Below are positions 40,798 to 53,367 of a stretch of 64,000 nt of DNA, piece by piece; the stretch's first letter is position 1, and each line of letters opens with the position of its first letter. Under the pieces are notes generated by a model, which saw nothing but the letters and a program-made list of their open reading frames with translations, did not search any database and had not been told where the DNA came from. Origin of the DNA: Clostridia bacterium. GTDB taxonomy: Bacteria; Bacillota; Clostridia; Christensenellales; Borkfalkiaceae. Made by a program: the position numbers and the translations under genes. Location of the stretch: NCBI GenBank assembly GCA_017625565.1, contig JAGAKN010000002.1:44916-108915 (forward strand), in the 5' to 3' direction.

Positions 40798-41748
40798 ATG
40801 AACAACAAAGTAACTATCATCGGTGCAGGTTCTGTAGGGGCAACCGTAGCGTATACGTTGGTTGCAACGGGTACGGTTGCAGAAATCGTATTGATTGACG
40901 TCAATGAAGCGAAGGCGCAAGGGGAAGCGTTGGATATTAGACAATCCACGCCCTATCTTTCGCCCACGAAAATTTATTGCGGTACGTACGAAGACGCCGC
41001 AAATTCCGATATCGTCATCGTCACGTCGGGTGTAGGTAGAAAACCCGGTCAATCGCGTATCGACCTTACGCAAACCAACGTCAATATTTTAAAGAGCATC
41101 GCTCCGCAAATCGTTAAGTACGCACCCGATGCTTTGTACTTGTTCGTAGCAAACCCCGTAGACGTGCTCACGTACGTATTTTGCAAGATTACGGGCGTAC
41201 CCAAGAACCGTGTAATCGGTACGGGTACGACGCTTGACAGTATCCGTTTGAGAACGCGACTTTCCGAACTTTATTCGGTCAACCAAAAGCAGGTTCACGC
41301 ATACGTTTTGGGTGAACACGGCGACAGCTCGTTCGTAGCTTGGTCGGCGGCGGACATTTCGGGTATTCCTTTGGACGAATACGAAAAGACGTTAACGGAT
41401 AAGAGCGTTTTGACCGTCACCCCGTACACGCGTGAAGACGTAGAACAATACGTTAAGAAATCCGGCGGACAAATTATTGCTGGCAAGGGCGCGACGTTCT
41501 ACGGTATCGCGGCGAGCGTGACGCAAATCGTAAAGAGCATTTATTCCAGCGCGTACACGATTTTGCCCGTTTCGACGGTTTTGGAAGGGGAATACGGGAT
41601 TTCGGACGTAGCGCTTTCTACGCTTTGCGCAATCGGCAACGAAGGGATTGTGACGACGCTTACGCCGAAACTTTCGGAAGAAGAACTTGCAAAAATGCAA
41701 CACAGCGCGGAAGTCTTGAAAGGCGTTATCGCGCAAATTGAAATTTAA
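40798..41748 (+). CDS. Lactate/malate dehydrogenase-family enzyme, probably malate dehydrogenase
   Basis: 316 residues from the ATG at 40798 (GGAGAAAGGA upstream). NAD site 'IIGAGSVGATVAY', catalytic 'GEHGDSS'. Overall it resembles L-lactate dehydrogenase and would usually be named so. The specificity residue ahead of 'KPG' is Arg81 (codon 41038), where lactate dehydrogenases normally have Gln and malate dehydrogenases Arg; the Gln-to-Arg change alone converts Bacillus LDH to a malate enzyme. Fumarase starts 16 bases downstream, then a fumarate reductase. I therefore favour oxaloacetate to malate with NADH; lactate dehydrogenase remains possible. Confidence 0.75.
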   Translation: MNNKVTIIGAGSVGATVAYTLVATGTVAEIVLIDVNEAKAQGEALDIRQSTPYLSPTKIYCGTYEDAANSDIVIVTSGVGRKPGQSRIDLTQTNVNILKSIAPQIVKYAPDALYLFVANPVDVLTYVFCKITGVPKNRVIGTGTTLDSIRLRTRLSELYSVNQKQVHAYVLGEHGDSSFVAWSAADISGIPLDEYEKTLTDKSVLTVTPYTREDVEQYVKKSGGQIIAGKGATFYGIAASVTQIVKSIYSSAYTILPVSTVLEGEYGISDVALSTLCAIGNEGIVTTLTPKLSEEELAKMQHSAEVLKGVIAQIEI

Positions 41749-41764
41749 GGATTAGGAAAGAAGA

Positions 41765-43141
41765 ATGGAATATCGTATTGAAAAAGACACAATGGGAGAA
41801 ATGCAAGTCCCCGCAGATAGATATTGGGCGGCGCAAACGCAAAGAAGTTATCAAAATTTCCGTATCGGTACGGAAGTAATGCCCCGTGAAATTACCCGTG
41901 CGTTCGGGATTTTGAAAAAAGCGGCAGCGCTTGCGAACTGCAAACTCGGGAAACTTTCCGAAGAAAAGAAAAATGCGATTTGCGCGGCTTGCGATGAAGT
42001 GATTTCGGGCGAATTGAACGGACACTTCCCGCTCGTCGTATGGCAAACGGGTAGCGGTACGCAATCGAATATGAACGCGAACGAAGTGATCGCAAACCGC
42101 GGTAATGAAATCGCAGGCGCGAAATTATTGCACCCCAACGACGACATTAACAAGAGCCAAAGCTCCAACGATACGTTCCCGACGGCGATGCATATTGCCG
42201 CGGTTGTAGCAATCGAGGACGATTTGTTCCCTGCGATGGATACGTTGATTGCGACGTTGAAACGTTTAGAAAAAGAAAACGAAGGCATTGTCAAGAGTGG
42301 TAGAACACACTTGCAAGACGCAGTTCCCATCGCATTTTCGCAAGAAATTAGCGGTTGGAGGAACATGATCGAAAAAACCAAAGCGCAATTGCAGTTGGCG
42401 ACGACGGGTTTGAAAGAACTCGCGCTCGGCGGAACGGCGGTCGGTACGGGCTTGAATGCGCCCAAGGGCTTTGCGGAAGAAGTGGCGGCGCAGGTTAGCG
42501 CGCTCACGGGCAAAGCGTTTGTGACCGCGGAAAATAAATACCACGCGTTAACGGCGAAAGACGAATTGGTGTTTGCGCACGGCGCGTTGAAAGCGCTCGC
42601 ATGCAACTTGATGAAGATTGCAAACGACGTACGTTGGCTTGCGAGTGGTCCGAGAGACGGTTTGGGGGAAATCTTTATCCCCGAAAACGAACCTGGTTCT
42701 TCGATTATGCCGGGAAAAGTCAACCCGACGCAATGCGAATCGATGACGATGGTTGCCGTACAAGTTATGGCGAACGACGTCGCGGTTGGCGTAGGCGCTT
42801 CGCAAGGGAATTTCGAACTCAACGTATTCATGCCCGTGATCATCTACAATTTCTTGCAATCGGTACGGTTGCTTGCGGACGGGATTACGTCGTTTGAAAA
42901 GAACTGCGTGACGGGTATTCAAGCAAACAAAGAAAAAATGAAACACAACTTGTACAACTCCTTGATGTTGGTGACGGCGCTCAACCCGTATATCGGTTAT
43001 GAAAACGCTGCGAAAACGGCAAAGAAAGCGTACAAGGAAAACATCTCGTTAAAAGAAGCTTGCGTGGCGCTTGGGTTCTTGACGGCGGAAAAATTCGACG
43101 AAGTATTCCGTCCCGAAGAAATGGCGTATCCGCAAAAATAA
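41765..43141 (+). CDS. fumC: Fumarate hydratase, class II
   Basis: 458 residues, the oxygen-stable, cluster-free fumarase. Signature 'GSSIMPGKVNPTQCE', 'SGRTHLQDAVPI' and 'KSQSSNDTFPTAMH' are intact. It interconverts malate and fumarate, linking the preceding dehydrogenase to the fumarate reductase pair encoded downstream. A long open frame on the opposite strand (41851-42843) is an artefact of codon bias. Confidence 0.97.
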   Translation: MEYRIEKDTMGEMQVPADRYWAAQTQRSYQNFRIGTEVMPREITRAFGILKKAAALANCKLGKLSEEKKNAICAACDEVISGELNGHFPLVVWQTGSGTQSNMNANEVIANRGNEIAGAKLLHPNDDINKSQSSNDTFPTAMHIAAVVAIEDDLFPAMDTLIATLKRLEKENEGIVKSGRTHLQDAVPIAFSQEISGWRNMIEKTKAQLQLATTGLKELALGGTAVGTGLNAPKGFAEEVAAQVSALTGKAFVTAENKYHALTAKDELVFAHGALKALACNLMKIANDVRWLASGPRDGLGEIFIPENEPGSSIMPGKVNPTQCESMTMVAVQVMANDVAVGVGASQGNFELNVFMPVIIYNFLQSVRLLADGITSFEKNCVTGIQANKEKMKHNLYNSLMLVTALNPYIGYENAAKTAKKAYKENISLKEACVALGFLTAEKFDEVFRPEEMAYPQK

Positions 43142-43163
43142 CACGAAAGGGAACGTAGAAAAA

Positions 43164-51941: not shown

Positions 51942-51963
51942 TAAGAGGATGATGAAAAATTAA

Positions 51964-51989
51964 GGAAACGCGTAATTTTGCGCGTTTCC
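51964..51989 (+). terminator. Intercistronic hairpin before the exporter gene
   Basis: Perfect 9-bp stem GGAAACGCG / CGCGTTTCC, loop 8, no U-run after it. More likely an RNA-processing or stability element, or a leaky terminator lowering exporter expression. Confidence 0.5.
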
Positions 51990-52011
51990 ACTATCAATTA
52001 AGGAGAATAAA

Positions 52012-53367
52012 ATGGAAAGTCAAAATAAAAAGAGTCTGAAATGGCTTTGGGTTTTGCTCGCGGTTGTCATTGTTGCGGGCATTGCAGCTTGGTGTACGTA
52101 TAGTGCAAGCCAATCGAAAGGCGTAGAAGGCGTATTCAAATTTAGTACGACGTTCGTAATGTTCGTGCTCGTGTTTGCAATCCTTGGATTAGGGTACTTA
52201 TTGGGCGCTATTAATATCAAAGGCGTATCGCTCGGAACGGCAGGGGTATTCTTGATCGCAATCTTGCTTGGTTGGGTATGTACTTTGGATTTTGGGAACG
52301 TACCCTTGTTGGGCTCGTTCCATATGGAAAGTACAAGTGAAACGGTCGTAAAATACTTAAAAGGACCTATCCAAAATATTGGTTTAATCATGTTCGTTGG
52401 TGCGGTTGGTTTTATCGCTGGTCCGAATTTCTTTAAAAACCTTGCAAAGAATTTTAAAACATATATTTTGTTGGGTGCAATTATCATTTTGGCGGGTACA
52501 CTCGTAGCGGTAATTTGCATTTTCTTGACGGATTACGGCTCTGAATACTGGGCAGGCATTTTGTCGGGGGCGCTCACGTCTACGCCTGGGTTCTCGGCGG
52601 CGCAAGATGCGGCGACGGAAAACCTTGCAAGAATCACGCTCGGGCACGCGATTGCTTATCCGTTCGGTGTTGTTGGGGTAGTCTTGTTCGTGCAATTAAT
52701 GCCCAAGCTTTTGAAATCGAACATGGATAAAGAACGCGAACTTTTAAAGCTCGGTGGCGAAGAAGAAAAACGGGATTACTCCAAGTTCTTCAAGTGCGAA
52801 GAATTCGGATTCTTGCCGTTTGCACTTGCGATCGTTGCAGGGTTGTTGCTCGGTTCGATTACCATTCCTTTGACAGGAAAGGGCTATGACGGAGCATGTT
52901 TCTCGCTTGGAACGACGGGTGGTGTATTGATTGCTTGCTTGGTTTTCGGGCATTTTGGACACATCGGTAAACTCTCGTTGGAAGTTAACGAACGTACGTT
53001 GAAAGTCCTTCGGGAATTTGGTCTTGCGTTATTCTTGCTCGGCGCAGGCTTTGAAGGTGGGGTAGCCCTCGTAGAAGAAATTAAGAATGCAGGGGGTGCA
53101 GGCATCGTTGTTTGGGGCTTCTTTGGTGGCGCTTTGATGACGGTATTCCCGATGGTTGTGGGCTATATCTTCGGTAAGTATTTGTTGAAATTACCGCTTT
53201 TGAACAGCCTTGGTTCGATCACGGGCGGTATGACGAGTACTCCCGCGCTTGGCACGTTGATTTCGACGGCAAAGACGGACGACGTAGCGTCGGCATACGC
53301 ATCGACGTATCCGATTGCGTTGGTATTGATCGTACTCGCGTCGCAACTTATGGTCACGTTGTTATAA
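52012..53367 (+). CDS. AspT/YidE-family dicarboxylate exchanger, probable succinate exporter
   Basis: 451 residues with about ten membrane segments and the duplicated Asp-Al_Ex halves: 'LSGALTSTPGFSAAQDAA' and its repeat 'SITGGMTSTPALGTLIS', each with a Gly/Thr/Ser/Pro core. The family includes the aspartate:alanine antiporter AspT and the succinate exporter SucE of Corynebacterium. Being last in an operon that makes succinate, export of succinate or exchange with another dicarboxylate (aspartate, malate, fumarate) is the likely role. No RCK (TrkA-C) domain separates the halves, unlike YidE. AAGGAG precedes the ATG. Confidence 0.8.
   Translation: MESQNKKSLKWLWVLLAVVIVAGIAAWCTYSASQSKGVEGVFKFSTTFVMFVLVFAILGLGYLLGAINIKGVSLGTAGVFLIAILLGWVCTLDFGNVPLLGSFHMESTSETVVKYLKGPIQNIGLIMFVGAVGFIAGPNFFKNLAKNFKTYILLGAIIILAGTLVAVICIFLTDYGSEYWAGILSGALTSTPGFSAAQDAATENLARITLGHAIAYPFGVVGVVLFVQLMPKLLKSNMDKERELLKLGGEEEKRDYSKFFKCEEFGFLPFALAIVAGLLLGSITIPLTGKGYDGACFSLGTTGGVLIACLVFGHFGHIGKLSLEVNERTLKVLREFGLALFLLGAGFEGGVALVEEIKNAGGAGIVVWGFFGGALMTVFPMVVGYIFGKYLLKLPLLNSLGSITGGMTSTPALGTLISTAKTDDVASAYASTYPIALVLIVLASQLMVTLL

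Follow-up and report, generated by a model that had tools for sequence, protein, structure and literature searches.

Gene content of the locus

The window, a stretch of 64,000 nucleotides from the Clostridia bacterium assembly GCA_017625565.1 (contig JAGAKN010000002.1, positions 44,916 to 108,915 of the forward strand), carries twelve genes between its positions 40798 and 53367, all on one strand and with intergenic gaps of -13 to +70 bases. They encode, in order, a member of the lactate/malate dehydrogenase family, FumC, HdrB, HdrC, HdrA, FlxD, two iron-sulfur proteins, FlxA, FrdB-like and FrdA-like proteins and an AspT-family carrier, and the family searches agree with the first-pass annotation, made from the sequence alone, which had listed the same twelve genes in this order. 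We propose that these genes would most likely work as one route driven by reduced nicotinamide adenine dinucleotide (NADH), leading from oxaloacetate to succinate; the Flx-Hdr proteins would probably feed a soluble-type fumarate reductase and possibly reduce ferredoxin. Bit scores are derived from profile family searches with Pfam (PF) models and with curated and NCBIfam models for which cut-offs are available. The assembly containing the window comprises 1.38 Mb in 23 contigs and is 96.23% complete.

Hdr and Flx subunits

All seven FlxABCD-HdrABC subunit types are found in the one cluster, with FlxC and FlxB recognised by iron-sulfur models, position and conservation. The HdrB-like protein (43164..43943; as with all genes of the run, + strand) was identified by family searches and a motif check and contains two CCG domains, with ten cluster-type cysteines at residues 9, 41, 42, 77 and 80 and at 151, 191, 192, 227 and 230. 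Both CCG motifs are kept in 75 of 76 frames of relatives, a count which genomes G052 and G056 enter twice. The protein falls under the cut-offs of both the methanogen HdrB model (127.2 bits; cut-off 345) and that of SdhE, the anchor subunit of methylmenaquinol:fumarate reductase (127.0 bits; cut-off 500). The latter enzyme offers a precedent for an HdrB-like subunit that feeds a fumarate reductase. HdrB frames of the window's kind also appear shorter than unlinked ones, an observation that concerns stop-to-stop frames only and is not used as evidence.

The adjoining HdrC-like protein (43940..44326) was identified by family searches and contains two 4Fe-4S motifs. HdrA (44368..46359), a flavin adenine dinucleotide (FAD) and iron-sulfur protein, has as its best solved match 5odc_A of Methanothermococcus (E-value: 2e-208). 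In the aligned part, 28 of 31 cysteines of 5odc_A are kept and three are absent, and Lys 413 aligns to Lys 409, presumably the residue described near the FAD. The FlxD/MvhD-like protein (46347..46802; PF02662, 190 bits) and HdrA match successive parts of one HdrA2 model (cut-off 1100), with HdrA covering positions 1-641 (796 bits) and FlxD positions 640-774 (186 bits), and they therefore represent a split form of HdrA2. The two iron-sulfur proteins that follow are FlxC-like (46804..47781), recognised by Fer4 models only together with position and conservation, and FlxB-like and related to ShyB/AsrA (47781..48818; PF17179, 107 bits; NCBIfam ShyB, 194 bits, under the cut-off of 690). The FlxA-like subunit (48811..49638), an AsrB/ShyC-like NAD(P)H-FAD oxidoreductase component matching PF00175 and PF10418, includes an NAD-binding domain and would take its electrons from NADH; its start is placed at the ATG at 48811, the mechanical open reading frame starting at the TTG at 48775.

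The two CCG cluster motifs of HdrB and the iron-sulfur and FAD sites of HdrA are intact. A profile search of the window's assembly gave no match to DsrC, in keeping with the first-pass annotation, which had seen none. FlpD frames with one in-frame TGA were seen in genomes G044, G039, G080, G075 and G033, where the codon could stand for selenocysteine in unlinked Hdr sets.

The FrdB and FrdA pair

The FrdB-like protein (49651..50325), identified by family search and motifs, is 224 amino acids long, has one 2Fe-2S motif and two CxxCxxCxxxC motifs, and is without the CCG domain (PF02754). Its motifs are kept in 105 of 109 frames of relatives. The FrdA-like flavoprotein (50337..51941) was assigned by family searches, motif checks and a fold check that spans from about residue 70 onward. 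It bears an N-terminal extension of about 88 residues, an Asn in place of the FAD-linking His (within the motif GD[AS]NT) and intact fumarate-site motifs. Across the 108 FrdA frames, to which G052 and G056 again contribute twice, the flavin site is without His in 103 and the motif is absent in five, and all five fumarate-site motifs are found in 101.

The best family score of FrdA is to TfrA (354 bits, under the cut-off of 718), with the last 119 positions of the model unmatched. Two other identities were rejected, L-aspartate oxidase NadB on its score (280 bits against a cut-off of 452.75) and the FAD-site residue, and quinol:fumarate reductase on the scores and the Asn at the FAD-binding position. 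Among the twelve genes, none was recognised as encoding a cytochrome b-type membrane anchor, the rest of the assembly not having been searched for one. The soluble-type FrdAB described by the first-pass annotation is supported. This FrdA is the one full-length PF00890 match in the assembly, next to 13 short ones. Three longer FrdA proteins of 605-619 amino acids (P0033, P0049 and P0117) were considered as fusions and discarded, their repeated internal segments being probably assembly artefacts. A scan of viral contigs with FrdB gave no relative.

Predicted carbon route, boundaries and neighbouring genes

The second gene encodes a fumarase of the FumC type (41765..43141; PF00206, 360 bits; PF10415, 86 bits), and the last an AspT/YidE/YbjL-family membrane carrier (52012..53367; PF06826, 209 bits; TIGR01625, 151 bits, over the cut-off), with a predicted dicarboxylate substrate that is probably succinate. 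The first gene (40798..41748) passes the cut-offs of both the L-lactate dehydrogenase model (341.6 bits; cut-off 303.55) and the general malate dehydrogenase subfamily model (295 bits; cut-off 283). In this dehydrogenase family an Arg in the substrate loop goes with malate and oxaloacetate, and a Gln is the criterion for L-lactate dehydrogenase. The residue preceding K-P-G is Arg in the first gene and in 43 of its 44 relatives, the remaining frame being without the motif. The nearest solved chain, 1y6j, is named L-lactate dehydrogenase and has Arg; 2zqy, also so named and presumably the Lactobacillus casei enzyme, has Gln. The names of the nearest solved relatives speak for lactate, with 59 of 60 chains among the matches listed being called lactate dehydrogenase. 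The lactate dehydrogenase identity was set aside all the same: its cut-off is passed, yet malate is preferred because of the substrate-loop Arg, and the gene is predicted to encode a malate dehydrogenase with malate as its product.

A GTP-dependent phosphoenolpyruvate carboxykinase and a PYC/OADA-domain protein are present in the window's assembly, in which the ATP-dependent carboxykinase found no match. The gene run itself would span the route from oxaloacetate to exported succinate. Elsewhere in the window (17803-22360), a homocitrate/isopropylmalate-synthase-like protein (150 bits, under the cut-off; possibly a Re-type citrate synthase), an aconitase (951 bits; cut-off 612) and an isocitrate-dehydrogenase-like protein are encoded in a row. 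These correspond to the oxidative half of the tricarboxylic acid (TCA) cycle, near its reductive half at 40.8 kb.

Consensus scans, which do not in themselves indicate function, located a promoter-like site upstream of the first gene (40677..40705, + strand; TTGGCG-17-TATAAT, with TG preceding the second hexamer) and a terminator-like hairpin of 14 pairs 3′ of the last (53376..53408, + strand). Whole-scan counts of such sites are near those of shuffled sequence (promoters: 23 against 16.7, standard deviation 3.9; terminators: 20 against 20.1, standard deviation 4.5). The gap between frdA and aspT contains a nine-pair inverted repeat (51964..51989), assigned to neither strand and with no T-run on the + strand; it might lower aspT expression. 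The earlier description of a single operon-like run is supported.

Conservation of the gene set

Related loci were taken as the best 80 of at least 538 places in named genomes, where the best FrdB matches belong to uncultured Clostridia, several of them from deer cecum, and to Candidatus Scatosoma; each count below uses the loci whose contig reaches far enough. The gene order recurs in the 80 loci as far as the contigs reach, with the exceptions counted per gene. Adjoining frdB, the Hdr genes are found without exception (hdrB 54/54, hdrC 56/56, hdrA 56/56), as are those for Flx (flxD 63/63, flxC 67/67, flxB 71/71, flxA 73/73) and frdA (73/73). Less constant members are fumC (51/53), aspT (53/62) and the leading dehydrogenase gene (30/46). 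The Flx-Hdr/frd arrangement is no accident.

In a sample at the level of the order, FrdB of the window's type occurs in 22 of 151 genomes and is absent from eight listed genomes of the window's own family, and the trait is accordingly patchy. Sequence around frdB was retrieved for 12 of the other 21 carriers in this sample: flxA and flxB lie beside frdB in all twelve and hdrA in eleven, the twelfth contig ending first. A second order, frdBA-hdrBCA-flxDC, is present in four phylum-level genomes, with flxBA next in the two that were followed further. Behind the set in one of its representatives (L131) the carrier is of the DcuA/DcuB type, and a similar-looking frame is found in L130. Locus L134 has a class I fumarase, unrelated to FumC, behind frdA, and FumC was not found in the stretch, while L143 has the dehydrogenase gene placed between frdA and aspT. 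Fumarase genes of either unrelated kind are found in the fetched stretch of 7 of 17 other phylum-level loci. These observations support a link to fumarate that has been kept through rearrangement and gene replacement.

The co-occurrence of hdrA, flxA, frdA and fumC, which the first-pass annotation had named as a check, is near-constant in the window's relatives; in the phylum-level sample, half of the FrdB carriers have no Hdr in the stretch (see below). Whether the two gene orders share a single origin is left undecided by the FrdA and HdrA trees, because unlinked Flx-Hdr sets group with each of them, L144 with the second order (support 100/100) and L147 with that of the window (98/93). In the FrdA tree, L096 is labelled as being without hdr only because its contig stops at flxB.

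Proposed electron route and its alternatives

Electrons would pass from NADH through FlxA to the flavin of HdrA, where bifurcation would send one to ferredoxin and the other through HdrC and HdrB to FrdB, FrdA and fumarate, directly from HdrB to FrdB and without a free thiol. The overall reaction would be 2 NADH + fumarate + oxidised ferredoxin -> 2 NAD+ + succinate + reduced ferredoxin (two electrons). We consider electron transfer from NADH to fumarate through Flx-Hdr to be probable, and give the reduction of ferredoxin in the same reaction about an even chance; our confidence in the mechanism as a whole is likewise evenly divided. The bifurcating fumarate reduction that was first read from the sequence is backed by the operon-like run, the failure to find DsrC, the soluble-type FrdAB and the intact HdrA and HdrB motifs, and is weakened by the occurrence of FrdBA without Flx-Hdr. 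Several further points weigh against it and are taken up below with the alternatives that they favour. One concerns the putative single complex of Flx, Hdr and Frd: no fusion or structure seen shows contact between them.

The disulfide-type cluster motifs retained in HdrB are another such point, in that a thiol step could still intervene. In a split thiol:fumarate reductase, Flx-Hdr would reduce a disulfide, either of a small molecule or of a protein, and FrdAB would draw its electrons from the thiol so formed. The intact HdrB clusters would suit this enzyme, as would the ranking of TfrA as the best model for FrdA and locus L039, where hdrCB-frdBA occurs with no hdrA in the stretch. Since FrdB is without a CCG domain, the assembly gave no DsrC match and no thiol carrier was recognised among the twelve genes, we regard this alternative as improbable.

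In a phylum-wide sample, FrdB of the window's type occurs in 18 of 149 genomes. Five of these carriers have Hdr with adjacent Flx (flxA being seen in three, and the stretch ending in flxC in G005 and G095), three (L034, L035 and L037) combine hdrCBA, an HdrA-like protein of 1071-1094 amino acids, mvhD and a flxC-like gene with frdBA, and one is the L039 locus mentioned above. In the remaining nine, the fetched stretch (shorter than 10 kb in two cases) contains no Hdr gene. Genes resembling 2-oxoacid oxidoreductase by eye follow frdBA in L034, L035 and L037, and a malic enzyme is encoded upstream in L035 and L037. Among the ten genomes without adjacent HdrA, FlpD is found elsewhere in eight and has no match anywhere in two, G071 (L030) and G067 (L036), both 99% complete; the FrdA proteins of these two fall within the 100/100 set that includes the window, on long branches. 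Flx-Hdr is therefore not obligatory for this FrdAB type, and FrdBA can apparently have other donors. Some lone frdBA pairs lie beside genes for cytochrome b561/iron-sulfur, NapC/NirT cytochrome or flavin mononucleotide (FMN)-binding proteins, and in G071 the pair is directly downstream of a pyruvate carboxylase gene.

The nine carriers without Hdr, the two genomes without FlpD and these cytochrome and FMN-binding neighbours would fit a FrdAB that works independently, taking electrons from ferredoxin, flavodoxin or some other donor, and lies in the window's run only for shared regulation. This is hard to reconcile with a union that is unbroken in the window's relatives wherever sequence suffices and is kept in the second gene order, and we hold it to be quite unlikely. 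A more tentative suggestion, doubtful as yet, is that FrdBA is an exchangeable acceptor cartridge whose conserved N-terminal docking region may clip onto different electron-input modules. These might be Flx-Hdr for NADH (in two gene orders), the HdrA-like/MvhD set beside 2-oxoacid oxidoreductase-like genes, HdrBC alone, and cytochrome and FMN-binding membrane proteins; HdrB might then be the detached thiol-type domain of TfrB turned into a wire to fumarate.

The second product of the proposed bifurcation, ferredoxin, has a potential of -400 to -500 mV, as compared with -320 mV for NADH and +30 mV for fumarate. On these values the coupled reaction would release some 33 to 53 kJ per mol. Weighing against the coupling, neither an RnfD-family gene nor a NiFe hydrogenase had a match in the assembly, absences that are tentative at its stated completeness. 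The assembly has one [FeFe]-hydrogenase match, with NuoF- and NuoE-like partners; the large subunit of this hydrogenase scores above the threshold for the NADH-dependent group A6 (850 bits; cut-off 765), a further point on the same side. An RnfC_N match was rejected as Rnf: it is a Nuo51-domain protein of 447 amino acids that reaches 190 of 245.95 bits on the rnfC model, with no RnfD-family match in the assembly. Its locus (L128, G000 contig C23) also encodes a glycyl radical enzyme and a likely activase and is microcompartment-like by eye. Succinate fermentation had been described at first as an energy-saving reaction. Of this, the potentials do allow ferredoxin reduction, and the saving is weakened with no RnfD-family or NiFe hydrogenase gene found; the gain from coupling would be redox balance rather than an ion gradient.

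Without bifurcation, Flx-Hdr would hand the electrons of NADH directly to FrdAB, and the two would amount to a simple soluble NADH:fumarate reductase; the Hdr-MvhD-MetFV set of Moorella may act in this way on methylene-tetrahydrofolate. The same missing Rnf and NiFe hydrogenase genes favour this alternative, as does the Moorella thermoacetica HdrABC-MvhD-MetFV complex, with which no ferredoxin reduction was seen (Mock 2014, according to the accessible part of PMC8578096). Against it stand the 28 of 31 aligned 5odc_A cysteines and the Lys at 409 kept in HdrA, as well as the large gap between NADH and fumarate, from which nothing would be conserved; on balance it appears unlikely, without being far-fetched. 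If bifurcation does take place, succinate formation in many uncultured gut Clostridia would dispose of NADH and lift part of the electrons to ferredoxin, and hydrogen and acetate yields would change in models of the rumen and hindgut.

Comparison with known systems

With TfrAB of methanogens the window shares a FrdA that scores best on the TfrA model, yet at less than half the cut-off, and differs in a FrdB without the fused CCG domain and in the extra N-terminal region of FrdA. The 8-methylmenaquinol:fumarate reductase SdhABE is likewise built from a flavoprotein, an iron-sulfur subunit and a CCG subunit resembling HdrB. Its electron donor is quinol, unlike the predicted Flx-Hdr donor of the window, and the window's proteins remain far below its models (HdrB, as given above; FrdA, 224 of 1100 bits). 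The FlxABCD-HdrABC proteins of Desulfovibrio vulgaris, reportedly described by Ramos in 2015 (a study cited in PMC7282089), have all seven of their subunit types represented in the run, which differs in that the assembly is without a DsrC match and a fumarate reductase lies within the run. The Moorella complex resembles the window in having an Hdr-MvhD set joined to a catalytic module other than a disulfide reductase, and is unlike it in that its acceptor side is, in the account available, a methylene-tetrahydrofolate reductase. Extracts of Blautia luti reduced fumarate with methyl viologen, and the accessible sections of that paper make no mention of Hdr or Flx. Those of PMC12578642 had no bearing on the coupling.

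Closer arrangements are known from sulfur bacteria. In tubeworm symbionts and Thioflavicoccus mobilis, flxABCD-hdrABC genes are interspersed with tfrAB and korABCD, and a complex has been proposed in which FlxABCD-HdrABC directly feeds 2-oxoglutarate:ferredoxin oxidoreductase and TfrAB (PMC6315080, 2019, in the part at hand). These clusters and the window have in common the Flx-Hdr genes among genes for a TfrAB-type fumarate reductase; the former serve a reverse TCA cycle with 2-oxoglutarate:ferredoxin oxidoreductase, whereas the window is predicted to support fermentative succinate formation. On the published description, the L034, L035 and L037 loci look closer than the window to this arrangement.

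The nearest parallel in published gene make-up, rather than by protein comparison, is the 'succinate operon' of Pseudoclostridium thermosuccinogenes (FrdAB: CDQ83_RS03325-20), comprising fumarate hydratase, an electron-bifurcating Flx-Hdr, fumarate reductase and a possible transporter (PMC7282089, 2020). According to the accessible part of that report, ferredoxin coupling was assumed 'as proposed previously', with citation of a 2019 preprint (Koendjbiharie and van Kranenburg), and the operon was approximately 4-fold up at 1% CO2, an increase that did not reach significance for all subunits. Under H2, succinate was almost lost, which was taken there as consistent with the coupling; the effect of Na2S, opposite to that of H2 and found confusing by the authors, counts on the other side. 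In both systems a single run encodes Flx-Hdr and FrdAB together with fumarase and a carrier, and both have the GTP-dependent carboxykinase. The window differs from the published operon in its leading dehydrogenase gene and AspT-family carrier and in having no RnfD-family match. A literature search of open-licence papers found no enzyme test of Flx-Hdr/fumarate coupling. The same idea was printed for P. thermosuccinogenes (PMC7282089), and the proposal of the first-pass annotation is therefore not new; as a hypothesis, the coupling dates back to publications of 2019-2020. New here, in comparison, are the interpretation of the leading dehydrogenase as a malate enzyme, the view of how widely and how exactly the union holds among Clostridia from gut samples, the natural fumarase and carrier swaps, and the occurrence of FrdBA also without Flx-Hdr. 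The sampled gene sets, the swaps and the genomes with FrdBA only make the coupling idea directly testable.

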